Assembly: GCA_015485665.1 (NCBI GenBank)
Contig: WFTC01000017.1
Coordinates: 1 to 55,978 of the forward strand
Origin: Candidatus Altimarinota bacterium
GTDB lineage: Bacteria; Patescibacteriota; Gracilibacteria; UBA1369; 2-02-FULL-48-14
DNA: 55,978 nucleotides
Direction of reading: 5' to 3'
Part shown: one piece after another, positions 29,352-46,085 of the stretch
Numbering within the stretch: position 1 is the stretch's first letter
How the letters are laid out: each line of letters begins with the position of its first letter
Notes under the pieces: generated by a model
Told to the model about the DNA's origin: nothing
Database searches by the model: none
The model's input: the letters and a program-made list of their open reading frames with translations, nothing else
Position numbers and translations under genes: made by a program

Positions 29352-30071
29352 ATGAAAAAAGCTCCTTTTTTGATTACATTCTCTCTAGTTTTCACGGCTT
29401 GTTCTTCAGCGGTAGCTCAATCCTTGGAATATCCGATTCACTTGTCCATGCAAATAGAATCACCGCAAAATGCAGCAAGTACGATGATTGGTGATTTATG
29501 GGGAAAGCTTGTAGTTGATCCGGACGGAAGTATAAGTGGTGAAGGTCGTATCTTATATTCAGATATAAGTCCTTGCTCTTGGATCCCGCCTTATCCAGAC
29601 GATGGAGATCCACCTTATTGTGAATTGACAGGTGTTCAGGATGGAAGCTTTACTATAAGTGGGAATGTAATTGATTACACGGGGAGCGGAGATGAAATTG
29701 ATGATGCAATTTTATCCAGTCATGAGGCTTGGGGCATCAAAACAGCAGTTGCTCCTCGCACACTCAGAATTACCTTTACGCCAAATGAAGTGCCTATGGA
29801 GAAGATGAATTTGTGGGGAATGAACAATGGCCTTCAGCCTATAGAAACAGGAGCTTTGGCAATGGGTCTTGATGCCGCTGGAGTATTTAATACTTTTGAG
29901 ATTTCACCTATCATTGCCGATTATGAAGATAATCAAGTAGTTATGGAAAGTGCCAGCTATCTTTTTGAAGGCACCGGAGCAATAGCAAAAGGCTTTGGAT
30001 CTATTTTCTTTGTAGATGATATTCCTGATTATGTTTATGAAGAAGGTTCAGATTACTATCTCAGCTTCTGA
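29352..30071 (+). CDS. Secreted protein of unknown function
   Basis: 239 residues. Signal peptide MKKAPFLITFSLVFTACSSAVAQS: either cleaved after AVA or lipidated at the Cys (FTAC is a weak lipobox). The mature part is acidic and beta-rich (DLWGKLVVDPDGSISGEGRILYSD) with a Cys pair at CSWIPPYP and PPYCEL that may form a disulfide. No family recognised. It lies alone between dut and rplA, on the opposite strand from both. A weak promoter with -10 TAAAAT is possible near 29305. Confidence 0.7.
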   Translation: MKKAPFLITFSLVFTACSSAVAQSLEYPIHLSMQIESPQNAASTMIGDLWGKLVVDPDGSISGEGRILYSDISPCSWIPPYPDDGDPPYCELTGVQDGSFTISGNVIDYTGSGDEIDDAILSSHEAWGIKTAVAPRTLRITFTPNEVPMEKMNLWGMNNGLQPIETGALAMGLDAAGVFNTFEISPIIADYEDNQVVMESASYLFEGTGAIAKGFGSIFFVDDIPDYVYEEGSDYYLSF

Positions 30072-31416: not shown

Positions 31417-32130
31417 TCAAAGCTGCTCAAAAACACGCTTCATTATCTCATGCTTTTTGTATGGATATTCAAAAGCGTAAAGTGTATCACCACGGCGGAT
31501 AACGGCATGAACAGTTTGGGTTTTACTTACATGATTGAAGTAAAAAGAAGAGTCTCCATAATTATTGGCTTCATTTACACTACCAAGTGCAGATTGATCA
31601 AGTCCAGCCTGTCTAAGTTTTAAATAAGCCTGAAAGCCTGCCGTATCATTTGAATATTTAATCTCATAAACAGAGCCTATATATATCTCCTCTTCAAATA
31701 AATTCCATTGATACACAAAAGCTTCCGAATCCTTAAATGGCAGAAATTGGAAAACAAAACCTGAATAAATTGTGTCTTTAAGCCTTGGATTTGCAAAACC
31801 CGCCTCACCGAATATATCTTCAGTTATGTAGGGAGTTAAGATTTTAAGCTCAATGGATTCACTACTGAGATTTACATCTTCATCATTCAGATCACTATCT
31901 TTCAAATTTTCATTCTGACCTTCTTCATTTGTAAATTCTTGACCTTCCAAGTCATTTCCAAAATCAGATCTAATATCATCTGAATTGAGATTTTCAATAT
32001 TTTCTTCTTCATTAAGTGTTGGCTGAACAAAAGATTTTTGCTTATCTCCGTAATCATTCAATAAAATATCACCTATAATCAGTACTACTGAAAGAGAAAG
32101 TATGATTGAAAAGACTGTAAACTTTTGCAT
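31417..32130 (-). CDS. Membrane-anchored acidic protein of unknown function
   Basis: 237 residues. One N-terminal membrane helix (about 4-23), then a very acidic Asn/Asp/Glu-rich linker (40-90), then a compact C-terminal domain (about 95-237) with FGEAGFANPRL, GFVFQFLPFKDS and HAVIRRGDTLYAFEYP. The design is a cell-surface domain held off the membrane by a flexible linker. No family recognised. It is divergent from a lipoprotein gene only 29 bp away; a 22-bp inverted repeat fills that gap, so the two may be coregulated. Confidence 0.68.
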   Translation of the reverse strand: MQKFTVFSIILSLSVVLIIGDILLNDYGDKQKSFVQPTLNEEENIENLNSDDIRSDFGNDLEGQEFTNEEGQNENLKDSDLNDEDVNLSSESIELKILTPYITEDIFGEAGFANPRLKDTIYSGFVFQFLPFKDSEAFVYQWNLFEEEIYIGSVYEIKYSNDTAGFQAYLKLRQAGLDQSALGSVNEANNYGDSSFYFNHVSKTQTVHAVIRRGDTLYAFEYPYKKHEIMKRVFEQL

Positions 32131-33101: not shown

Positions 33102-33653
33102 TTATTTCTTTTTAACTTGATCAAAGTCAAGTTCAACAGGTGTTTCACGTCCAAATATGGAAATCATCACCTTAACCTTGCCTTTTTCCTCATCAATATC
33201 TTTTACAATTCCTTCGTAAGTTGCAAAAGGTCCATCTAAAATCATAACAAGGTCTGATTCAACAAGAGTAATTTTAAATTTGGGTTGATTACTATCTTCA
33301 TCCAGATAACGCTCAATTACACCGAATTCTTCAGCTGAAACCGGAACCGGAATTGTGCCTGAACCTACAAAGCCGGTTACATTCGGAGTGTTTCTAACAA
33401 CATACCAAGATTCATCGTCAACTATCATATTTACAAGAACATAACCAGGGAAAAGACGCTTCTTTTCAGTTTTAGGCTTACCTTTCTTTACAACGATTTG
33501 AGTTTCTTTTGGAACAATCACATCAAAGATTTTATCTTGCATGTTCATAGATTCAATTCTTTGCATAAGAGCGCTGCGAACAGCATCTTCATAACCGCTG
33601 TAAGTATGAATCACATACCAATGCTTTCCGGTATTTTTTGCTTGTTTAGCCAT
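33102..33653 (-). CDS. nusG: Transcription elongation/antitermination factor NusG
   Basis: 183 residues. NGN domain KHWYVIHTYSGYED at the N-terminus, FPGYVLVNMIVDDESWYVVRNTPNVTGFVG in the middle and a C-terminal KOW domain (VMILDGPFATYEGIVKDIDEEKGKVKV). It links RNA polymerase to the ribosome or Rho. It starts 5 bp after secE, the usual partner. The usual next genes rplK and rplA are displaced by about 1.8 kb. Confidence 0.96.
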   Translation of the reverse strand: MAKQAKNTGKHWYVIHTYSGYEDAVRSALMQRIESMNMQDKIFDVIVPKETQIVVKKGKPKTEKKRLFPGYVLVNMIVDDESWYVVRNTPNVTGFVGSGTIPVPVSAEEFGVIERYLDEDSNQPKFKITLVESDLVMILDGPFATYEGIVKDIDEEKGKVKVMISIFGRETPVELDFDQVKKK

Positions 33654-33658
33654 GCGGT

Positions 33659-33874
33659 TTACAGGTTATCAAGTGCAAGTTTATAAAGCTGGGCAAAACT
33701 AAGATCCAGCAGACCTATAATGAGAACCACTATAATGGAAACAATTACACTTATGGATGTAAGTAAAATAGCCTGCTCTTTTGTTGGCCAAGTTATTTTG
33801 CCATATTCTTCTAAAGCCTCAATGAAGAATCTCTTTATAGGATTGCTTTTTTTAGTGCTTGTCTTTGATGTCAT
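33659..33874 (-). CDS. secE: Preprotein translocase subunit SecE
   Basis: 71 residues, single-helix form. The conserved amphipathic stretch FFIEALEEYGKITWPTKEQA is followed by the membrane helix (about 38-62). A Lys/Ser/Thr-rich N-terminus precedes it. Part of SecYEG. Its promoter and leader lie in the divergent region shared with the pilin-like cluster. Confidence 0.94.
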   Translation of the reverse strand: MTSKTSTKKSNPIKRFFIEALEEYGKITWPTKEQAILLTSISVIVSIIVVLIIGLLDLSFAQLYKLALDNL

Positions 33875-33989: not shown

Positions 33990-34919
33990 ATGCTCCACGC
34001 CAAATTAAAATTACATCTCCACAAAATTCCAAAAATTATTTTTTTTGCAGGATTGGCGGCCATGCTTTTTCTTATTTCAAATACCTATGCTGGCAGTTTT
34101 TTACCTTTACCGGACTCTTCAAATCTGAATGTTGTAAGCCCTGAAGGTAGCGATGCAGTAGAAAAGTTCGGTAATGCTCTAGGTCCCATTGCTAGGGTGG
34201 TTAGGATTCTTGCGGGAGCGTCTGCAGTTTTAATGATTGTTATTTCCGGATTCATTATGGTCATCAGAGGTGAAAATGAAGATGCAGTTTCCAAGGAGAA
34301 AGATGCTATTAAGTATGGCATTATAGGGCTAATGATGCTTAGCATCGCTGGTCCGATTGCTGAAGTTTTTGATTTCAGGCAAGGGAATTATCTTACAGAT
34401 TCAGAGTCTTTTGTTGAGCGAGCTTCACTTTTTGGCGAGACGACTCAGCTTATAATCACATTCATAAAATATTTTTTAGGCAGTTTGGCAGCGCTTTTCT
34501 TTGTTCGTTCAGGAGCAGCTATGATTGCAGGCAGCCATAATGAGGAGAGTATTTCAAAAGAGAAGAGGACGATGATGGTATCTGTTATGGGCTTATTTTT
34601 GGTTATTGTTTCCGATTTGGTGGTGAGAAGAGTTTTCTTTGTTGCAAAGTACAGTGAAGATGCAAATGCAACCATTGTCAGCATTGATAAAAATGAATTT
34701 ATAAGTCAAGTTGTTGGTTTTACAAATTTGATTGTTACTTTTGTGGGTCCTATAATGATGCTTGCTCTAGTTGCAGGTGGGGCATTGTATGTTACGTCGG
34801 GCGGTGATGAAGAGAAAAACAACCTGGCTAAAAAAATTCTCTTTAACTCAATCATAGGAGTTATTGTTATTTATGGGGCTTTTGCCATTGTTTCCACATT
34901 CGTAAGCGGAAGATTTTAA
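33990..34919 (+). CDS. Membrane protein of three tandem VirB2/TrbC-like pilin modules (A)
   Basis: 309 residues. Signal sequence (about 13-34), then three units of two helices each around a short charged loop: 68-125 (VIRGENEDAVSKEKDAIKYG), 150-215 (AGSHNEESISKEKRTMM) and 238-306 (TSGGDEEKNNLAKKIL, then IIGVIVIYGAFAIV). Each unit matches the two-helix pilin of type IV secretion systems as found in CPR bacteria, normally a separate protein of about 110 residues. The third unit is closest to the single-module form. First gene of the cluster; its stop touches the start of the next gene. Function inferred: envelope platform or pilus-like assembly. Confidence 0.75.
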   Translation: MLHAKLKLHLHKIPKIIFFAGLAAMLFLISNTYAGSFLPLPDSSNLNVVSPEGSDAVEKFGNALGPIARVVRILAGASAVLMIVISGFIMVIRGENEDAVSKEKDAIKYGIIGLMMLSIAGPIAEVFDFRQGNYLTDSESFVERASLFGETTQLIITFIKYFLGSLAALFFVRSGAAMIAGSHNEESISKEKRTMMVSVMGLFLVIVSDLVVRRVFFVAKYSEDANATIVSIDKNEFISQVVGFTNLIVTFVGPIMMLALVAGGALYVTSGGDEEKNNLAKKILFNSIIGVIVIYGAFAIVSTFVSGRF

Positions 34920-35894
34920 ATGAAAAAAATACTTACATTCACAGTTGTCATCCTCACTTTGTTGTTTTTAGGTACTGCTCAAGCATCTGAAAACATTTCA
35001 ATCAATATTACAAGTGGAGGAGGTGGAGATTCTTATACTGACTTTTTGGAAGATTTTGCAAACGGAGTAAAAGATCAGAGCATAAGCGGAGGCAGTAATG
35101 GAATTGAGCTTAGCACTTTTCAAGATGGAGTCAGCTCGGACGGAGTGAGTGGAATATTGGGGGCTATTTCAACTTTTCTTGATTTTTTTAAATTGATTAT
35201 TTCTCCAATTGCAGTCCTTTTTATAGTGATTATGGGTGTGCGTATGGTCGTTTCCGGAAGTAAAAATGAAGAGATCTTAACAAAATCCAAGACTTACATG
35301 ACATATGCTTTGATGGGCTTAATTGTAATATTTATGTCTGACAGTATTGTCGCAGTTTTCTTTGGATCGGAAGGGGAGATTTTTAGAGGAGGTAATGAAG
35401 GTGCAATTGAGTTTGGAAGGCGTTCCGCGAGCTTATTTCAAGGTATTTATAGTTTGATTCAAGTTGTTATTACCGCTATTGCGGTATTTATGTTGGTTAC
35501 AGCGGGATTCAGGTATGTAGCAGGCTCTTTTAGTGATGATCAAGTTGGAAAAGCTAAGCAGCAAATCACATGGTCTATTGTTGGACTTTTTGTTGTTGGA
35601 ATTTCAGAATTTTTAGCTAAACGTGTTTTCTTCTTAAATCAAGGTACAACACTGGGGGTTGACAATGCAAAATTACTTTTTGCTCAAGTAACAAATTTTA
35701 TTGCAGGTACGCTTGGGACTTTGTCATTTGTATTTTTACTCTATGCCGGCTATCTTTACATATCCGGATCTGCAAATGAAGATAATGTGGCAAAAGCAAA
35801 AAAAATATTGATGGGTGCTTTTATTGGTTTACTACTTGCAGGAGCTGCCTTTGCAATTACAAATACTATTGTAGAGCTTGATGCTTCGCGCTAG
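34920..35894 (+). CDS. Membrane protein of three tandem VirB2/TrbC-like pilin modules (B)
   Basis: 324 residues, a diverged paralogue of the preceding gene. Signal peptide ending near QASE, a Gly/Ser-rich stretch (ITSGGGGDSYTD), then units at about 77-150 (VVSGSKNEEILTKSKTYM), 171-243 (VAGSFSDDQVGKAKQQIT) and 250-322 (ISGSANEDNVAKAKKILMGAFIG). The repeated form is hydrophobic helix, (S)G-x-x-(N/D)E, K-x-K, hydrophobic helix. Starts directly at the previous stop, so the two proteins are probably made in equal amounts and may form a hetero-assembly. No ATPase of a secretion system is encoded nearby. Confidence 0.75.
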   Translation: MKKILTFTVVILTLLFLGTAQASENISINITSGGGGDSYTDFLEDFANGVKDQSISGGSNGIELSTFQDGVSSDGVSGILGAISTFLDFFKLIISPIAVLFIVIMGVRMVVSGSKNEEILTKSKTYMTYALMGLIVIFMSDSIVAVFFGSEGEIFRGGNEGAIEFGRRSASLFQGIYSLIQVVITAIAVFMLVTAGFRYVAGSFSDDQVGKAKQQITWSIVGLFVVGISEFLAKRVFFLNQGTTLGVDNAKLLFAQVTNFIAGTLGTLSFVFLLYAGYLYISGSANEDNVAKAKKILMGAFIGLLLAGAAFAITNTIVELDASR

Positions 35895-35927
35895 TAAACC
35901 TATAATGACTAAGAATTGATTCACGCC

Positions 35928-38900
35928 ATGATCAAAATTCACGCCAAACTGACAATTCATATAGCTCTAATTGCACTATTTTTCTTTCAGGTTCCTTTTG
36001 CTGGGGCTTTCAATTTTGATTCGGGTACAGATTATTCTTCCAGTTCGCAGAGTTTGGATTCTTGCGCCGGTCTTTCTGATAGCGGAAGCAGCTTGAGCAC
36101 TTCCTTGGGTTGTGATTCCGATGATATTATTGATTTCACTACCTATTCCGGAGATTTTGAAGGTCCAAACGCCGATGGCTATGATGAAGCGTTAACAAGA
36201 AATACCAATGCAAGAGATTTCATACAGACTGTAGTAAATTACGCACTTTCTTTTTTGGGTTTGTTTGCTGTGATAATGGTGATTTATGGAGGAGTGCTTT
36301 ATGTGCTTAGTAGAGGTGATGAAGATATGGCGAGTAAAGGTAAAAAGACTATTTCTTATTCAGCAATTGGAATTTTAATTGTTTTAGGTTCTTTTGCAAT
36401 TGTAAACACACTGATTCAGGCAGGTGGTGGAGATGGTGCCGGCGGAGGCATTGATGGTTCGGGTGGAGCAGGTACGGCAATTGCTGAAGCAGGTGCTAAT
36501 TTTGATGTGGAAGATGTACTTGGTGAATTGGAGTCAATCACAAATGAATTCGTATCGGCTTATGATACTTTTGTAGAAATAAAAACGGAAACACTGGCAA
36601 TGAACTCTTTGGAGTTGCCTTATATATTGAGTCTTTCCGTAAATGATACGGGTGTCAGTAGTTGGGGAGACGCATTGGCAAGTGGACTTTCAGGAGGATC
36701 TTGGGACCCTGAAGATTATGAAGATATTTATGACATAAGCGGATTGAACGAATTTATAGCTTATATGACAGATGGAGCTAGGAATGTACAAGTTGCTTCA
36801 GACTCTAGAAGCAATGCATATTTTGCAGCAAGTGAAGTTATAAATTATTTGACTACTGACAGTACATTGTTGGACTATACAAAAAATGACAGCAATTTGC
36901 TCAATTTTTGGCCATTGGAGCTTTTGTCTACTTTGTCCGGACGCCTATTTCCTTCGGCAAAGGCTGAGAGTGATTATGTGGATTATTTTACAAATCAATA
37001 TTCACCGGGAAGCTGTTCAAGTTTGACGGGTGAATATACCGGAACGGTTGAAGACAGAACATCGGTTTTCACTTTTATAGGTTCTACGGAATATGAAACG
37101 AGCACTGAAGTTCTTTATGATTATGTTTGTACATTGATTGACTACATTGATGCAGCGGCTCTGGATGACTATCAAAGTACAATAAGTGATCTTGAAGAAA
37201 GATTGGATCAAAATGTTATCGCTCTTTTTGAGGATTCAGGTTTAAATGGCATAAATCAGTCTTTATCTGATCTCAAATCAACTTTAAACGGAGCAAAGAA
37301 GACTCTCAACGTGGACACCTTGCAACAGTTTGTATCTGATGTTGAAGAGGCTTATCTTGCAATTGAGAATGTCCAGTTTGTTGCTGTAAGTTTGGATGTT
37401 TCCAAAACACAAGGCAATGCACCTTTGCTGGTTACTTTTGATGTTGTTGGTACGGAAGATCCAACAGGCAAAACTGTAAATGCCGACAATATAGAGTGGG
37501 ATTTGGATGGAGATGGGGTTTACAACTCACCACTTGACAGATCTTTAAATGGAGGAGAGGCTGCTACCGGTTACTCGGTAAAAGCTCTTTATACTGAAGA
37601 AAAATCTTACAGAGTCAGAGTTCGTGTAAAAAGTTCAAGTGATGAAGTTGCTTCAGGTGTAGCAACTCTTACTGTTAATGTTGAAGCTCCCAGATCAAAG
37701 ATTTCTCTTGTTGCGAGAACGAATGGTTATGATACGGTTTTGGCTGACTTTAGTTCTGATAATAAGTTTGAGTACATAGATAAAGATTCTTACCGTGTTA
37801 CCACTGCTGAAGCTCAAGCAGGAATACAATTTGATATTTCTGCTTCAACTGATGGGAACGGTGGTGAACTTGAATATGTGCAGTGGGATTTTGGAGACTC
37901 GGATTTTGCTGAAGGACCTTGGAGTGGAGAATTACTCAGACCTATTCGTTATTATTCAGAAGGTACATATGAATTATCTCTTACCGTTACGGACAGTTCA
38001 GGCATTGAAGATAGAAAATATTTTACACTTTATGTCGGTTCTCCTGCAGCAAGAATAAATTATTCTCCGGAGTCAGGTGCAGTTGGTACCGAATTTAAAT
38101 TTGATGGAAGCGGATCTTCTACCGATGTTGGTAATATTGTGAGTTATTCTTGGTCAATTTCCAGGGATGAAGGTCCAATTCTTTTAGATGACAGTTCTTC
38201 CTCGGTAATTGAGCACACTTTTGATGCACCGGGAGTTTATGATGTACAACTTCAAGTTGTTGATGGTGCTTATAATACGGATACGGCATCAATATCACTT
38301 CTGGTTGAATCTCAGCCTCCTGTGGCTGATTTTGAGTGTAAAATAATGGACGAAAATAAGCCGAGCACTCTTACTTGTGATGCGAACGACAGTTATGATC
38401 CGGATGGAGATGACTTGATTTATGAGTGGGATTTTGATAGCGATAACTATGAGATAATTGAAGGTGATGAAACTTCAAATAAAGTAAAGCTGCGTTACAA
38501 CTCTACTGGAAGCTATAACATAGCTTTGACCGTTAAAGATGATTATGAACAAGACCTGCAACAAAGTGATATTACAGAGAGAACTTATACGGTTGATTCA
38601 GTTTTGGAGCTTAGCTTTGATTTGAAAGGCGATGCTGCAATCAATCTTGATTCTCAAGGTGAAGTGGAGCTTGAGTTTCAAGGAGAAACAACCGGAACTT
38701 CACTTGAATTAGATTGCGGGAATAATACGTCGGATTATAGTGGAAGTTTGTCACGAGGCACTGCCACATTGAATTGTAAGTATTCGGAGGCGGGAGTATA
38801 TATTGCTAAAATGACTGCTTATGATGATGAGAATAATTTTATTTCAGACAGTAAAAGGGTTTACATTGGAAGCGGAGATTCGCCCATAGCGGTAATTCAA

Positions 38901-40847
38901 GTTGATGGAAACGGTGAAGATATATCTTTTGATGGCAATAAAGTATATGGAAATGTGAAGACGAAATTTACATTTGACGCTTCAGATTCTGTAAATATTG
39001 ACGGATCGGATGCTAATCTGACTTACAGTTGGAATTTTGGTAACGGTAAAACTTCAGCAAGCAAAAATGTAACAACCGTTTTTGATGAAGTTGCAGACTA
39101 TGAGGTGGTTCTAAGAGTAAGAGATAAAAATGATACTTCAATTTATTCGGAAACTTCAGTTTTGGTTTCCATTCAGCCTCTTGAGCCGAAACTTACAGGA
39201 ATAAGTATAGTTCCGCAGGCAGATTCTTTAGAAACACCTTTGAAAGTTAAAGTTAAGGTTGATGCGAAAGATGAGGATGGTGAAATTGAATATATTAAAG
39301 CGTGGTATTATGATCTCAATGATACTGCTGAAGCTTTGGGGGCTGTTATAGCCCAAGCGGATGAATTTTCCATGACAATAAATACAAAAGGAGAAGAAGG
39401 CGAAGAAGTGGATTATGGATTTGCAGTTGAAGTAACTGATTCGGATAATTTAACTGTTAGAAGTGAGGATGTTTTATCTCCTGATGAAGTTCCAAAGTTG
39501 ACAGTAATAAATGGACCGAACGATTCACCTGAAGCTAATTTTTCAGTTGATTTTACATCTGTATATATTGGTGATGAAGTTACTTTTATAAATGAATCTT
39601 TTGATCCGGATGGTGAGATTCTTTATTCGTGGTGGGATATTGGGGCTGACGGTACTTATAATGATGAAGCGCTTGAAGGGGCTGAGTCATTGAGCTATAC
39701 ATTTACACAAGTTTATCCGGATGGCATTGATGTCCGTTTGAAAGTAGAGGACGATGCCGGTGCTACAGATACATCGGATACAATTAGAATTTATGTAGAT
39801 ACTCTTGCAGATCCTCCAGATGCTAGGTTCTTAACGGATATTTACGGAACAACTGTTCAATTTATAAACAATTCTTATGTGGACACGGAAAATGGTGCGA
39901 GTTTACAGGGGATATATTGGGATTTTGATCTGTCAAAAGATACGGATGGAAATGGAGTACCAAATGATGATTTTGATTCTTTTGAAGAAAATCCAAAGTG
40001 GACATATGAAGAGCTTGGAAGTTATCAAGTCATGATGACAGTTGTTGATTCCGCAGGTCAAACAGATACGGTTACAAAAGATATTGAGGTTTTGGATACG
40101 GATGATCCCACAGCATCATTCACTTATACATTGGATGAAAAAAAAGTTCAGTTTAAGAATGAATCTCAAGTTGATGAAGAAAAAGGTGTTGAGGTGCGAT
40201 CATATATTTGGGATTTTGATCTTAATTATGATGCAGATGGAGATGGAAATAGTGAAAATGATGTGGACAGCAATAAAAAAAGTCCGACAGTTGAATATGA
40301 TGATTATGGTGATTATGAGGTATCTTTGACAATTGTTGACAGTTATGGGAAAAGCGATGTCTACAAAGATACTGTTGAAGTGAAAAATCCTGTGCAACCT
40401 GTAAAAGCTGTTTTGACAGGCACACCTCAAATAAATTCAAACAATCAGATTATTTTGACAGGTACTGAGGCTGACATCACGTTCTTTTTCAGTGCTGAAG
40501 GAGGTAGTGGCAAATTTACTTATACTTTTGATAAAAATATTTTTTACGATACGGATAAGGATGGTTTAAGGGATAATGACATTGATTATCAGATTGAGGA
40601 TTCCGGATCTTGGACGACAAGATTTTATGAATCTTATGGCACTATTGTGGTTGAAATGACAGTTATAGATGAAGAAACCGGTGAAAGTGACAGTGCCACA
40701 GTTCAGGTGATCTTTGAAGGTAGCCTTGGAGCTGCTAATCTTATAAATGCAACGCCTCGTGATATGGCACTTCTCATATTAAGCGCACTTATTGCCGCTA
40801 TCGGCGGTGTATCATTACTTGCTTTTAAACCTTCATTTAAAAAATAA
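35928..40847 (+). CDS. Giant surface protein: VirB2-like module plus eight or more PKD-type repeats
   Basis: 1639 residues from ATG 35928 (an earlier TTG at 35916 is unlikely). Signal peptide (about 5-28). One pilin-like unit (about 100-165: VLYVLSRGDEDMASKGKKTISYSAIGI), a Gly-rich hinge, and a helical region to about 480. PKD-like repeats follow, with core motifs near 525, 652, 741, 831, 1032, 1234, 1329 and 1426 and a further beta unit near 1531. Several carry acidic loops (DLDGDGVYN, DTDGNGVPNDD, DADGDGNSEND, DTDKDGLRDND) resembling Ca2+-binding loops. A C-terminal helix (about 1610-1630) with a basic end anchors it. It is likely an extracellular stalk or adhesin built on the two preceding proteins. 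Confidence 0.8.
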   Translation: MIKIHAKLTIHIALIALFFFQVPFAGAFNFDSGTDYSSSSQSLDSCAGLSDSGSSLSTSLGCDSDDIIDFTTYSGDFEGPNADGYDEALTRNTNARDFIQTVVNYALSFLGLFAVIMVIYGGVLYVLSRGDEDMASKGKKTISYSAIGILIVLGSFAIVNTLIQAGGGDGAGGGIDGSGGAGTAIAEAGANFDVEDVLGELESITNEFVSAYDTFVEIKTETLAMNSLELPYILSLSVNDTGVSSWGDALASGLSGGSWDPEDYEDIYDISGLNEFIAYMTDGARNVQVASDSRSNAYFAASEVINYLTTDSTLLDYTKNDSNLLNFWPLELLSTLSGRLFPSAKAESDYVDYFTNQYSPGSCSSLTGEYTGTVEDRTSVFTFIGSTEYETSTEVLYDYVCTLIDYIDAAALDDYQSTISDLEERLDQNVIALFEDSGLNGINQSLSDLKSTLNGAKKTLNVDTLQQFVSDVEEAYLAIENVQFVAVSLDVSKTQGNAPLLVTFDVVGTEDPTGKTVNADNIEWDLDGDGVYNSPLDRSLNGGEAATGYSVKALYTEEKSYRVRVRVKSSSDEVASGVATLTVNVEAPRSKISLVARTNGYDTVLADFSSDNKFEYIDKDSYRVTTAEAQAGIQFDISASTDGNGGELEYVQWDFGDSDFAEGPWSGELLRPIRYYSEGTYELSLTVTDSSGIEDRKYFTLYVGSPAARINYSPESGAVGTEFKFDGSGSSTDVGNIVSYSWSISRDEGPILLDDSSSSVIEHTFDAPGVYDVQLQVVDGAYNTDTASISLLVESQPPVADFECKIMDENKPSTLTCDANDSYDPDGDDLIYEWDFDSDNYEIIEGDETSNKVKLRYNSTGSYNIALTVKDDYEQDLQQSDITERTYTVDSVLELSFDLKGDAAINLDSQGEVELEFQGETTGTSLELDCGNNTSDYSGSLSRGTATLNCKYSEAGVYIAKMTAYDDENNFISDSKRVYIGSGDSPIAVIQVDGNGEDISFDGNKVYGNVKTKFTFDASDSVNIDGSDANLTYSWNFGNGKTSASKNVTTVFDEVADYEVVLRVRDKNDTSIYSETSVLVSIQPLEPKLTGISIVPQADSLETPLKVKVKVDAKDEDGEIEYIKAWYYDLNDTAEALGAVIAQADEFSMTINTKGEEGEEVDYGFAVEVTDSDNLTVRSEDVLSPDEVPKLTVINGPNDSPEANFSVDFTSVYIGDEVTFINESFDPDGEILYSWWDIGADGTYNDEALEGAESLSYTFTQVYPDGIDVRLKVEDDAGATDTSDTIRIYVDTLADPPDARFLTDIYGTTVQFINNSYVDTENGASLQGIYWDFDLSKDTDGNGVPNDDFDSFEENPKWTYEELGSYQVMMTVVDSAGQTDTVTKDIEVLDTDDPTASFTYTLDEKKVQFKNESQVDEEKGVEVRSYIWDFDLNYDADGDGNSENDVDSNKKSPTVEYDDYGDYEVSLTIVDSYGKSDVYKDTVEVKNPVQPVKAVLTGTPQINSNNQIILTGTEADITFFFSAEGGSGKFTYTFDKNIFYDTDKDGLRDNDIDYQIEDSGSWTTRFYESYGTIVVEMTVIDEETGESDSATVQVIFEGSLGAANLINATPRDMALLILSALIAAIGGVSLLAFKPSFKK

Positions 40848-40850
40848 ATT

Positions 40851-42911
40851 ATGGAAGAAGAAAATAAGAATATTGATTTGGATTCTCAAAATAAAACAGA
40901 CCGTAAAAAAGAAACTCTGAAACGTTTAATACTACTTTATTTATCTGTTTCTGGAGCAATTTTAACCTTAATTGTTATTTGGTCTTTCACTTTGGCTCAA
41001 AAACAAATTGCTTTTTTTGATTTCATTGGTATTCAGCAAGTAAGTTTCAATGTTTTTTTGATGAAGCTTTTTAATTGGCTATTTGCAATCATGGTTTTGA
41101 TTGCACTTTTAGCTGCTTTGATACCTTTAATTAAAGGTCTTCAGTTAAAAAAGGATCAACTTGAGCTTAAGAAAATGCATTCAAAAAAAGCTCTGAAAAG
41201 AGGATTACTTTTCTTTTCACTTACGCTTATTTGGCTTATTGGGATAATACTTTTGCAAGGCATTTTAATTCCTGAATCCAGATATGAAACTTATATCAAA
41301 ACCATACCTGAAAATACAATTTCTTTAACTGCGCCGATAGAGATCACTTTTGATGCATCTGAGGTTCCTATAGATACGAGCATATATAAAATTTTGGCTT
41401 ACACTTGGACATTCGGCGATGGTGATAGAGCTACGGGAGAGAAGGTTTCACATAGGTATATGGAAAAAGGCACAAAGGATGGCAGATATACGGTTTTTCT
41501 TACGGTCGCTTATATGGACATAAGGAGCGGTGAACAATTTGAAGCAGAATTTTCTACTGAAGTGGTCATTGCGAATGAGGCTGTTTCAGCAAGTTTTCTT
41601 GTTAGTAAAGAATCAGGAGAATTGCCACTCAATGTAAGTTTTGATGCAAGTGCATCCAAAGATCCTGATGGAGAAATAGTTGCTTATGAGTGGGATTTTG
41701 ATGGAGATGGTAGAATTGATGCAGAGGGTGAGATAGTTGAATACACATATGAAAAAGAAGGTGAGTTTGAAGTTACTTTGACTGTAACGGATAATAATGG
41801 GGAAGTGGATATTGCATCTATGATAATTGAAGCGGGAAGCGTTGGAGGTTTAAATGCTATTATAAGAATGCCTCTTCCACAGGGAAATAATTATATTGTA
41901 GGGCAAGAATATGACTTCTCCGGTGATGATTCTGAAATTAGAGAAGGTGCGATTTCAAGATATACATGGGATTTTGGTGACGGTGATAGCAAGTCGGGTC
42001 GTAATGTTTCTCATGTTTATGAAGAAAGCGGGATATATACTCTTACACTTACGGTGCAGGATGCACAGGGGAATAAAGACATAGATGAGCTTGAAATCAG
42101 GGTTATTGATGAAGGTTCCCCACCTATGGCAAAAATAGATACGATTCCAAGCTTAAATTCAGACAAAGTTACTGGAACATCGCCATTAACTTTAGAATTT
42201 GATGCTACAAAGTCAACTGATCCTGATAATGATATAGTAGAATATGAATGGGATTTTGATGGAGATGGCAGGGTGGATGAGACAGGAAGTAAAGTTGAAT
42301 TTACTTATGATGAAGTGGGAGAGTTTGAAGCAAAATTAACCGTGACTGATTCTTTTGGCAATCAAGATACAAGTTTTTTGCCAATTGAAGTAACTGAACA
42401 AGGGATTATAGCTAAGTTGGAAGTTGATCAGAATAATGGTGAAGTACCTTTAACGGTACATTTTGATGCTTCAGGTTCAAGTTACAAAGAAGGTAATATA
42501 GTTGCTTATGAATATGACTTTGGAGATGGAAATACAACCATAAGTGGATCTTCTTTAAGTTATAAATATAAGAGTGTAGGAACTTTTTCCGCTTCTGTAA
42601 CTGTAGTTGGAGATGATGGTGAACGTGATACTGCCACTGTTCAGATTGTAGTAAGGCCTGTTTCTTTAACAGCTTGTTTTACGGTAAATACGGATAGTGG
42701 AAGTGTACCTTTATTTGTATCTGTTGACCCTTCCTGTTCTCAAGGTACAATTGAGGATTATTATTGGGATTTTGGTGACGGAGATATCAGTTTTGATCGT
42801 AAGCCTGAAACTCATATTTATTCTGAAGCAGGTAATTATACAATCACTTTGGAAATTACAAGTGATGATGGGATAGTTTCTCAAATTGAGAAAGAAATTA
42901 CAGTCAAATAG
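40851..42911 (+). CDS. Three-helix membrane protein with six PKD repeats
   Basis: 686 residues. Cytoplasmic N-terminus, membrane helices at about 24-46, 62-88 and 116-138, then six PKD units with cores near 183 (YTWTFGDGD), 279 (YEWDFDGDGRID), 371 (YTWDFGDGD), 465 (YEWDFDGDGRVD), 553 (YEYDFGDGN) and 637 (YYWDFGDGD). Two of them have DFDGDGR loops. PKD domains bind proteins or sugars and resist stretching. It lies 3 bp after the giant PKD gene, closing the cluster, and overlaps the lyase gene end by 8 bp (convergent). Likely interacts with the giant protein at the surface. Confidence 0.82.
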   Translation: MEEENKNIDLDSQNKTDRKKETLKRLILLYLSVSGAILTLIVIWSFTLAQKQIAFFDFIGIQQVSFNVFLMKLFNWLFAIMVLIALLAALIPLIKGLQLKKDQLELKKMHSKKALKRGLLFFSLTLIWLIGIILLQGILIPESRYETYIKTIPENTISLTAPIEITFDASEVPIDTSIYKILAYTWTFGDGDRATGEKVSHRYMEKGTKDGRYTVFLTVAYMDIRSGEQFEAEFSTEVVIANEAVSASFLVSKESGELPLNVSFDASASKDPDGEIVAYEWDFDGDGRIDAEGEIVEYTYEKEGEFEVTLTVTDNNGEVDIASMIIEAGSVGGLNAIIRMPLPQGNNYIVGQEYDFSGDDSEIREGAISRYTWDFGDGDSKSGRNVSHVYEESGIYTLTLTVQDAQGNKDIDELEIRVIDEGSPPMAKIDTIPSLNSDKVTGTSPLTLEFDATKSTDPDNDIVEYEWDFDGDGRVDETGSKVEFTYDEVGEFEAKLTVTDSFGNQDTSFLPIEVTEQGIIAKLEVDQNNGEVPLTVHFDASGSSYKEGNIVAYEYDFGDGNTTISGSSLSYKYKSVGTFSASVTVVGDDGERDTATVQIVVRPVSLTACFTVNTDSGSVPLFVSVDPSCSQGTIEDYYWDFGDGDISFDRKPETHIYSEAGNYTITLEITSDDGIVSQIEKEITVK

Positions 42912-44864: not shown

Positions 44865-45508
44865 AAAGGTGATTTTTTAGGCTTTCCATTTGAGCGAGGG
44901 AAATTTTTCGCAGTATCAAATATTTTTTTAAAAACAAGTATCACTCTGCTTTCGCCTGAAGGAAGCCTATAATAGTGTTGATTTTCCAGCTTAATATTCA
45001 ACTTGGTCATAGCTCTTTGGGCTTTGGATATTTCTTTATGAAAATTAGGTCCTTTCCAAGCAAATAGCAAGCCACCAACTTTCAAAAAAGCCACGGCATA
45101 TTCCAGCAGGACGGGCAGCGGAGCAACAGCTCTTGCAGTTACAATGTCATAAATTCCTCTATGTTCAGGCTCGTGAGCAAGAATTTCAAAACGATTAACA
45201 ATTCCACGGACATTTTGTAGAGATAAATTATCAGAGATATTCATTACAGCTTTAATTTTCTTTCCTCGTGAATCAACTAAAGTAAAATTATAATGTGGAA
45301 GAGCTTCAGCCAGAATCAAGCCGGGCATACCTCCTCCGGTTCCCAAATCCAATACCTTGCAAGGATTTTTAGGTCTGGCGTGCCAAATATTTAGAAACTC
45401 CAAACAGTCAGGAAAATGTTTACTTTCAATAAGTTCACAATCTTTCTCAGATAAGAGATTCAGTGATTTTGCTTGATTTTGAAATAGCTCAATTAGCCTC
45501 CTCTGCAT
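44861..45508 (-). CDS. rsmG: 16S rRNA m7G methyltransferase RsmG
   Basis: 215 residues from ATG 45508 (MQRRLIELFQNQAKSLNLL), the length expected for RsmG/GidB. SAM motif KVLDLGTGGGMPGLILAEALP, LVDSRGKKI, and VTARAVAPLPVLLEYA. Methylates G527 near the decoding site. The frame continues upstream into the lipoprotein gene, but those residues match nothing and the shorter form fits the family. It overlaps the lipoprotein stop (45489) by 20 bp. Confidence 0.92.
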   Translation of the reverse strand: MQRRLIELFQNQAKSLNLLSEKDCELIESKHFPDCLEFLNIWHARPKNPCKVLDLGTGGGMPGLILAEALPHYNFTLVDSRGKKIKAVMNISDNLSLQNVRGIVNRFEILAHEPEHRGIYDIVTARAVAPLPVLLEYAVAFLKVGGLLFAWKGPNFHKEISKAQRAMTKLNIKLENQHYYRLPSGESRVILVFKKIFDTAKNFPRSNGKPKKSPL

Positions 45509-46085
45509 TCTTTTCAGGCTGGTCAGATTCTTCAGAATCTTGAATGTCATTAGATTCTTCAGAAGATGTAAACTCACATTTGGGCACGCAGACTTGAACG
45601 CACAAATCATCTCCTTCTTCACAAGAACTGGCGCAGGCATTCCATTCTCCTCCCGCTGCATTACATGCTTGAATATTATCAGAATAGTCCGGAGTTTCTT
45701 CCACATTCAACTCAGGTTTTTCAAGGACATAAAGAGAAATGCTCTCCATGGTGCTTGATGTTGTACTTTGATCAAAAGCGCTTACTTTAAGCTCACATTT
45801 TGTAGCTGGCTCATAGGAATTCAAGACTTCCAAACTTAAATTATGCACATTGCTGTTTTTCATACTTTCACTTACAACCGGTAATAGTGTTACAGGATCA
45901 TAACCTTGACAATTAACCTCGGAAATATATGCCATTGCGGGCTGAGATAAGACCAAATCCAATGTGTCGTTTAGTGGATCAATTACACTTTCCGATGGCG
46001 TTGTAAAAGTAATAGTGTAAGGGGCGAGCAAGGTACATCCGCCCAAAACAATGGGGCTTAGAAAAGTGATCCAATTTATTTTCAT
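45489..46085 (-). CDS. Lipoprotein with Cys-rich C-terminal motif
   Basis: 198 residues. Signal peptide with lipobox VLGGC (Cys 17). The middle part is a beta-rich domain. The C-terminus has seven cysteines in the pattern CNAAGGEWNACASSCEEGDDLC-x3-C-x3-C, ending in an acidic tail. Similar Cys-rich GG-x-WN-x-C modules occur in other CPR surface proteins (from memory). The spacing suggests disulfides and needs an oxidising exterior. Function unknown. It precedes rsmG with a 20-bp overlap. Confidence 0.75.
   Translation of the reverse strand: MKINWITFLSPIVLGGCTLLAPYTITFTTPSESVIDPLNDTLDLVLSQPAMAYISEVNCQGYDPVTLLPVVSESMKNSNVHNLSLEVLNSYEPATKCELKVSAFDQSTTSSTMESISLYVLEKPELNVEETPDYSDNIQACNAAGGEWNACASSCEEGDDLCVQVCVPKCEFTSSEESNDIQDSEESDQPEKNAEEAN

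Follow-up and report, generated by a model that had tools for sequence, protein, structure and literature searches.

The stretch of DNA analyzed here (the window) is 55,978 nucleotides long. Open reading frame calling locates a set of four genes, A to D, at positions 33990–42911, all of which are encoded, with the features described below, on the + strand. Gene A (33990..34919) encodes a protein of 309 residues, in which a signal-peptide-like N-terminus is followed by three VirB2-like two-helix modules. Gene B (34920..35894, 324 residues) also starts with a signal-peptide-like N-terminus and continues with three modules. Gene C (35916..40847), a giant of 1643 residues when read from its TTG start (an in-frame ATG at 35928 is an alternative), comprises a pilin module, a helical domain, a PKD array, and a C-terminal hydrophobic segment. 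Gene D (40851..42911) encodes 686 residues with three N-terminal transmembrane (TM) helices and six PKD domains. The gaps between the genes are 0, 21 (33 if counted from the ATG of C), and 3 bp, in agreement with the 0–33 bp of the original prediction. The single promoter that it placed before the set finds no support: the 27 promoter-like matches are no more than chance would give (30.7 expected), and promoter prediction gives none upstream of 33990 on the + strand.

The cluster is flanked by a conserved divergent neighbor, NusG (33102..33653, − strand, 183 residues). Between nusG and gene A lies an ORF of 71 residues with one TM helix (33659..33874, − strand), which is probably SecE-like, judging from its size and position. 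A small ORF with one TM helix occupies the same interval in relatives too.

Matches to the Pfam family PF18895 (T4SS_pilin) are found at all seven predicted modules, in agreement with the 3+3+1 arrangement proposed earlier. For the whole proteins, the scores are 65.3 bits for A (E 5.2e-18, in three stretches), 84.1 bits for B (E 7.1e-24), and 34.8 bits for C, each clearing the curated 26.6-bit threshold. Taken singly, six of the seven modules exceed this value: A1 (34161..34349, 34.2 bits), A3 (34719..34901, 36.2 bits), B1 (35151..35360, 34.6 bits), B2 (35433..35618, 40.2 bits), B3 (35658..35870, 33 bits), and C1 (36216..36407, 40.8 bits), the best conserved of the seven. Module A2 (34437..34625) stays below it with 20.3 bits (E 4e-4) and is recognized by a local profile with an E-value of 1e-18. 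A profile trained on the modules recovers 3+3+1 here and in nearly all relatives of the order. The original prediction had named PF04956 (TrbC/VirB2) as the profile to search with; with a curated cut-off of 27.9 bits, this family matches A with only 17.6 and C with only 16.1 bits, and B not at all at E-values up to 1. The module family is therefore PF18895 and not PF04956.

Structure prediction of a triple protein on its own, suggested earlier as a check, bore out the modular architecture. The AlphaFold2 model of B (mean pLDDT 82) contains three confident helical hairpins, formed by residues 75–112/117–148, 159–201/206–237, and 247–282/287–323. A hairpin is likewise predicted for module C1 (residues 99–131/136–170). 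VirB2 conjugative pilins are small single-domain proteins that polymerize, whereas A and B hold three modules each and the module of C is fused to a PKD giant. Single-module pilins are also encoded in the genome of the window. The modules closest to such canonical pilins are C1 and the last one in each triple, and the first two modules of each triple are divergent.

Between the pilin module and the first PKD domain of C, a helical domain (36495..37376, about residues 194–487) is predicted by AlphaFold2 with helices at 198–231, 274–294, 300–324, 396–438, 444–462, and 466–484. The helices mostly have pLDDT values of 80–97 and are separated by disordered loops. A fold search with this domain gave no significant match, and searches aimed at a fold like that of VirB5 or VirB6 also found none. 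The PKD array of C follows (37377..40757), with Asp/Asn-rich loops and ten domains by its own profile (8–12 in relatives); D has six. As originally predicted, both proteins carry PKD arrays: PF18911 matches C with 189 bits (E 1e-56) and D with 305 bits in six stretches (E 1e-92), against a cut-off of 27 bits. Relatives of solved structure are PKD domains of collagenase ColH. No host-binding domain of known type was found in C or D. The protein C ends with a hydrophobic segment followed by KPSFKK (40758..40844), seen in just 31 of 61 relatives and thus lineage-specific. We had considered C as a loop anchored at both ends and dropped this idea, given that half of the relatives are without the C-terminal segment.

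The original prediction had staked itself on linkage in related genomes, and our survey found the cluster conserved across the order. Protein B was matched in 99 of 99 relatives searched. In the 68 order-level clusters examined, C and D normally lie downstream and nusG is usually divergent, a NusG homolog being found within 2.5 kb upstream in 56 (contig ends cut 3 more). The cluster is intact at all of these loci, contig breaks and split frames aside. Orthologs of D are present in 12 of 13 genomes from other families of the class, and none was found in seven other Patescibacteria. In one genome (G093), the A–B pair and the C–D pair are on separate contigs (L071 and L140), and in several other genomes of the class A–B-type triples and D co-occur unlinked. 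Judged from these sequences, the system spans the whole order and, in a partly unlinked form, the class.

The individual modules also keep their identity. For 234 of 261 pilin modules, the nearest relative is the module at the same position in another genome, and only 10 have their nearest neighbor inside their own genome. Similarly, 321 of 324 PKD domains of D match the same position in other genomes, and exactly six are found in 48 of 50 complete relatives. This positional identity argues for a fixed hetero-assembly rather than a polymerizing pilin or an expanding adhesin. Adhesins usually vary in repeat number and D does not, which suits a structural role as well; its constant PKD number points to a stalk with a structural role and a set reach.

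Outside the class, a one-to-one mapping of the seven modules onto pilin arrays failed: for most outgroup pilins, the C1 profile gives the highest score. A similar design recurs in other Patescibacteria, which encode pairs of giant proteins that begin with one pilin module and go on with Ig-like domains. Their pilin arrays adjoin the only solute-binding protein gene of the genome; in the order studied here, the solute-binding gene is not near pilin genes.

That VirB4, VirB11, and VirD4 are missing nearby, as stated in the original prediction, is true of the cluster but not of the genome, where T4SS ATPases are encoded, unlinked, elsewhere. Neither the ORFs of the window that were scanned near the cluster nor the conserved neighborhood of relatives yielded a T4SS gene, and VirB6, VirB8, and PrgI were not recognized in the cluster. 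A T4SS locus would have VirB4 beside the pilins; VirB4 in this order adjoins gyrA or gyrB, without pilin genes. Three VirD4/TrwB-type coupling ATPases are encoded in the genome of the window, and such proteins are present in 39 of 39 genomes tested. For VirB4, the counts are 8 of 8 relatives from the class and 18 of 19 genomes. In the window's own assembly, neither a profile (PF19044) nor a sister sequence retrieved VirB4, and our first impression was of a genome lacking it. We set this aside, since relatives carry VirB4 and the contig stops 0.3 kb upstream of gyrA, close to the VirB4 site of relatives; a loss is thus not claimed. The unlinked VirD4-like ATPases, together with VirB4 in relatives, leave room for a link to the Patescibacterial T4SS.

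VirB2-like pilin arrays belong to the T4SS of Patescibacteria, which are described as monoderm and presumed to be host-dependent (PMC12102498), and an array of six VirB2-like pilins in the T4SS locus of the Saccharibacterium S. epibionticum is essential (PMC10633639, PMC12857230). The set described here resembles these arrays in family, PF18895 being among the search profiles used there, and in having several divergent pilins side by side. It differs in that the known arrays are described as separate pilin genes, near virB4 in many genomes, whereas here we find three modules per protein, a PKD giant that starts with a single module, a three-TM PKD partner, and no adjacent T4SS gene. PKD domains are not mentioned in the text on VirB2 arrays (PMC12102498). 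Against the definition of an array as 2–11 tandem divergent pilin genes, there are seven divergent tandem modules, but fused into three genes. The cluster would be a variant of the Patescibacterial VirB2 arrays; literature searches for this gene make-up found no relevant description.

Other systems are more distant. The archaeal Ced/Ted conjugation pili share VirB2-homologous two-helix pilins, but they are single-subunit helical pili, and neither concatenation nor PKD stalks are described for them in that report (PMC9905601); their CedB/CedD-type ATPases have weak matches here. Vampirococcus lugosii, from a related CPR lineage, has very large membrane proteins that contain PKD domains and are thought to serve host attachment, but pilin modules or a conserved cluster are not reported in the accessible text (PMC8080830). 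Gene D is weakly similar to NF058578 (CPR_pilus_PamR, an RbmA-like pilus system protein in NCBIfam), a named CPR pilus component, with 35.5 bits over two short stretches against a cut-off of 300. This match probably reflects a shared beta-sandwich repeat, and literature searches found no paper on PamR.

We tentatively favor, at somewhat less than an even chance, a reading in which the N-terminal part of C joins A and B in a fixed membrane platform derived from VirB2, with C and D as PKD stalks of set reach for surface contact. The pilin modules would no longer polymerize freely but would build a single membrane assembly of fixed order, with 14 helices in seven hairpins. After Sec export, each hairpin would insert so that its loop, which is charged and rich in Lys, faces the cytoplasm, and the modules would pack side by side in the manner of VirB2 subunits; the geometry may be a ring, as in the original prediction. 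Order and copy number would be fixed by covalent joining and positional divergence, both evident from the sequences. From this assembly, the stalks would rise through the cell envelope, C with its helical domain and then about ten PKD domains, and D with six on a separate three-TM anchor. The platform most likely derives from, and may still serve, the Patescibacterial T4SS, with its VirB4 and VirD4-like ATPases encoded elsewhere. Docking on a host or neighboring cell would be its function, and this attachment role is a reasonable guess; a stalk of set reach would suit attachment as well as a conduit across the wall or a tether of the envelope. A bolder proposal, possible but rather doubtful, is an undescribed surface machine ancestral to the class. 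Concatenated VirB2-type pilins would form a hetero-heptameric ring or platform, assembled in advance, that bears a pair of fixed-length PKD stalks; in this lineage, a pilus subunit would have become a lasting device in the membrane that serves host contact or transfer.

Alternatively, though this is unlikely, the seven joined modules could start a VirB2-type pilus as its first layer, with C as the tip adhesin and a shaft built from the single-module pilins encoded elsewhere in the same genome (genome labels C1, C6, C11, and C15). Type IV pili carry minor pilins and a PilY1 tip complex, and T4SS pili a VirB5 tip. These offer a functional analogy only, in that an adhesin is borne by a fixed set of distinct pilins; their pilin folds are unrelated or their proteins separate, and no homology was found here. 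The resemblance of module C1 and the third modules to canonical pilins would suit such a tip, as would a large extracellular part borne by one module of seven. However, D with its three TM helices would remain in the membrane, and a C-terminal membrane segment is present in roughly one half of the C proteins. The fold search with the helical domain of C gave no match and so revealed no resemblance to VirB5, and no pilus is documented in this group.

Still less likely is an envelope-spanning conduit for DNA, protein, or nutrients, in which the modules would line the membrane and the PKD proteins would continue the channel outward across wall and S-layer, powered by VirB4 and VirD4 in trans. The near-universal ATPases noted above suit this, archaeal Ced/Ted systems import DNA with VirB2-type pilins (PMC9905601), and pilin arrays elsewhere in Patescibacteria flank the sole solute-binding gene. 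Against it, VirB6, VirB8, and PrgI were not recognized in the cluster, VirB4 and the solute-binding gene lie apart from the pilin genes in this order, and PKD arrays are usually rods, not tubes. We consider least probable a housekeeping tether in which C (about ten PKD domains) and D (six) keep S-layer or wall at a set distance from the membrane and the pilin modules are a mere anchor, since it leaves seven different modules unexplained where simple TM anchors suffice, as in D, even though the system is universal in the order, PKD number and order are fixed in D, and SLH-domain proteins are encoded in the same genome.

With its proposed fixed platform and PKD stalks, this four-gene set, conserved in a group of very small and largely uncultured bacteria, probably serves to make contact with other cells, and would bear on how most Patescibacteria hold on to and exploit them; in the only species studied by genetics, pilins of this family proved essential. 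The set is strictly conserved throughout the class and its seven modules can be told apart, which makes it a tractable target: the sequence itself gives the stoichiometry, so that structure, localization, and essentiality are directly testable. Such a platform would be a case of gene fusion locking VirB2 pilins into a fixed assembly. This would bear on the suggestion that conjugation pilins originated as ordinary membrane proteins (PMC9905601).

Open reading frames together with PF18895 and PF18911 matches confirm the four-gene cluster of concatenated pilin modules and PKD proteins named in the original prediction. Genes A to D are co-directional on the + strand (window 33990-42911), with gaps of 0, 21 and 3 bp. 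A (309 aa) and B (324 aa) each contain three matches to T4SS_pilin (PF18895), C (1643 aa) combines one such match with PKD domains, and D (686 aa) is a PKD protein, giving a 3+3+1 layout of VirB2-like two-helix modules. In the Pfam profile search, whole-protein PF18895 scores are 65 bits for A, 84 for B and 35 for C, above the cut-off of 26.6 bits, while the cluster proteins remain below the cut-off of TrbC/VirB2 (PF04956), the family originally proposed; the pilin assignment thus stands through T4SS_pilin. The PKD profile PF18911 reaches E-values of 1e-56 in C and 1e-92 in D. Signal-peptide-like segments can be read at the N-termini of A, B and C. The single promoter placed ahead of the set is not borne out, as promoter prediction at the cluster gave no outstanding signal.

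The AlphaFold2 model of B alone, built from 72 aligned B sequences, contains three hairpins of long helices (mean pLDDT 82), in line with the predicted triple protein. The N-terminus of C (58 aligned N-termini) is modeled as a pilin hairpin followed by a disordered linker and, ahead of the first PKD domain, a helical domain; mean pLDDT is 70 and pTM 0.52, with locally high confidence in the helical domain. Fold searches returned no significant PDB match.

The window's genome comprises 860 kb in 23 contigs (estimated completeness 100%), and its named relatives are Candidatus Peribacteria MAGs. All comparisons rest on MAG assemblies, with loci sampled from about 80 genomes. Protein B has matches in all 99 relatives searched, and the linkage recurs as predicted: in the 68 A+B clusters read in the order, C (8 to 12 PKD domains) and then D (six) come next. 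D is uncalled in 17 of 69 loci having A, B and C, nearly all of them contig ends or split frames; at locus L105 it overlaps C by 71 bp, and at L122 it is absent from the 0.8 kb past C. A divergent nusG lies upstream of 56 of the 68 clusters, and contig ends cut 3 more. Elsewhere in the class, genome G092 has the complete set and an additional one-module gene, G094 has a 4+4 version with four modules in each triple-type protein (L072 11607-15135), and G093 has A-B and C-D on separate contigs (L071 and L140). D orthologues (E below 1e-70) are found in 12/13 genomes from other families of the class, the exception (G097) having many in-frame TGA codons, and in 0/7 other Patescibacteria tested. The co-occurrence of the parts even when unlinked argues for a shared function.

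In a tree of every module from 38 loci, the nearest module occupies the same position in another genome in 234 of 261 cases and lies inside the same genome in only 10. Judged from these sequences, the seven modules split before the radiation of the order and have not been homogenized since. The PKD domains of D have a same-position counterpart elsewhere in 321/324 cases. Exactly six are present in 48 of the 50 complete D proteins; the remaining two count 9 and 11. A hydrophobic C-terminal segment is present in only 31 of 61 C proteins. The positional identity of modules and D PKD domains, unlike that of a freely polymerizing pilin or a repeat-duplicating adhesin, indicates that A to D is a fixed assembly. 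Of the three modules in a triple, the third is the one that resembles canonical single pilins, as the sole module of C does, and modules one and two are divergent; this pattern was seen in several outgroups and divergent members of the class.

As originally noted, no VirB4, VirB11 or VirD4 ATPase is nearby; no T4SS ATPase was found in the cluster. VirD4/TrwB-type ATPases are present in all 39 genomes tested, with three in the window's genome, all outside the cluster. On contig C1 of this genome, a TrwB/VirD4-like ATPase directly precedes an array of four genes that together encode five PF18895-like pilin modules (L039 6288-10831). After this array lies a 118-aa lipoprotein-like ORF with no Pfam match (MKALFAAISLSSVFLTACTQ; L039 10874-11230). 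VirB4 (PF19044) is found in 18 of 19 genomes tested, two of them from the same family; in the window's genome neither PF19044 nor a sister protein located it. In relatives of the order VirB4 lies close to gyrA, with no pilins or other recognizable T4SS genes nearby. Since the contig here stops 0.3 kb upstream of gyrA, the missing VirB4 is not taken as a loss.

Outside the class, the genome's only PF01547 solute-binding match adjoins a VirB2-like pilin array in 10/10 Patescibacteria genomes tested (L139 7342-8676; L146 4007-5572; L147 7771-9156; L148 7774-9072; L150 7480-8799; L151 14606-15979; L152 6651-7952; L194 9344-10735; L195 12348-13721; L196 9567-11033). galU is often present too, and no ABC permease is among the genes listed next to PF01547 at these loci. 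Gene and array may possibly form a pilin-based uptake system; among the papers searched, none mentioned Patescibacteria, a solute-binding protein and a pilin together. In the window's order, the single solute-binding gene lies away from pilins (L187 8009-9475; L188 8856-10262; L189 8364-9833; L190 7665-9158; L192 8650-10032), and in four of the five loci its neighbor is a protein of unknown family with 8-10 TM segments. The window also holds three lineage-specific secreted or anchored ORFs with no Pfam match (29352-30071, 31417-32130 and 45489-46085), in the vicinity of genes for ribosomal proteins and rRNA modification.

Across Patescibacteria, Quinonero-Coronel et al. described VirB2-like pilins together with pilin-gene arrays of 2-11 members (PMC12102498); PKD is absent from the text of that paper. 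Wang et al. found the T4SS of a Saccharibacterium, including its pilins, to be essential (PMC10633639), and a review emphasizes its six structurally conserved, divergent pilins (PMC12857230). T4SS pilins and a PKD protein are among the highly expressed genes of unknown function in methanogen-parasitizing Patescibacteria (PMC10936435). The recent NCBIfam model CPR_pilus_PamR shows that a CPR pilus system already bears a name, but gene D falls far under the cut-off of this model. In the literature open without subscription, preprints aside, we found neither concatenated pilin modules nor pilin-PKD fusions described. The cluster thus presents PF18895 pilin-family members in an arrangement unreported for that family.

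A related design occurs in three families of other Patescibacteria (genomes G220, G134 and G151), where two adjacent genes (580-670 aa and at least 2470 aa) are each headed by one PF18895 module and continue into Ig-like (Big_5), TIG or laminin-G domains (L137 9222-19901; L138 8406-19901; L141 9055-18509). The recurrence of head plus stalk with other domains strengthens the view that surface stalks use the VirB2-type module as their head in the membrane. The seven joined modules could instead be a pilus tip complex, which we consider unlikely, and we give similarly low credence to an envelope-spanning conduit and to an envelope tether. With their module family, predicted hairpins, fixed module order and number, PKD stalks, linkage and class-wide co-occurrence, we tentatively read A to D as a pilin-module platform carrying PKD stalks, a plausible reading that falls a little short of probable. 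The helical hairpins would lie in the membrane with their Lys-rich loops presumably cytoplasmic, the modules would pack side by side as one seven-module platform, and the PKD domains would lie outside the cell. Such a platform may be used for contact with other cells.
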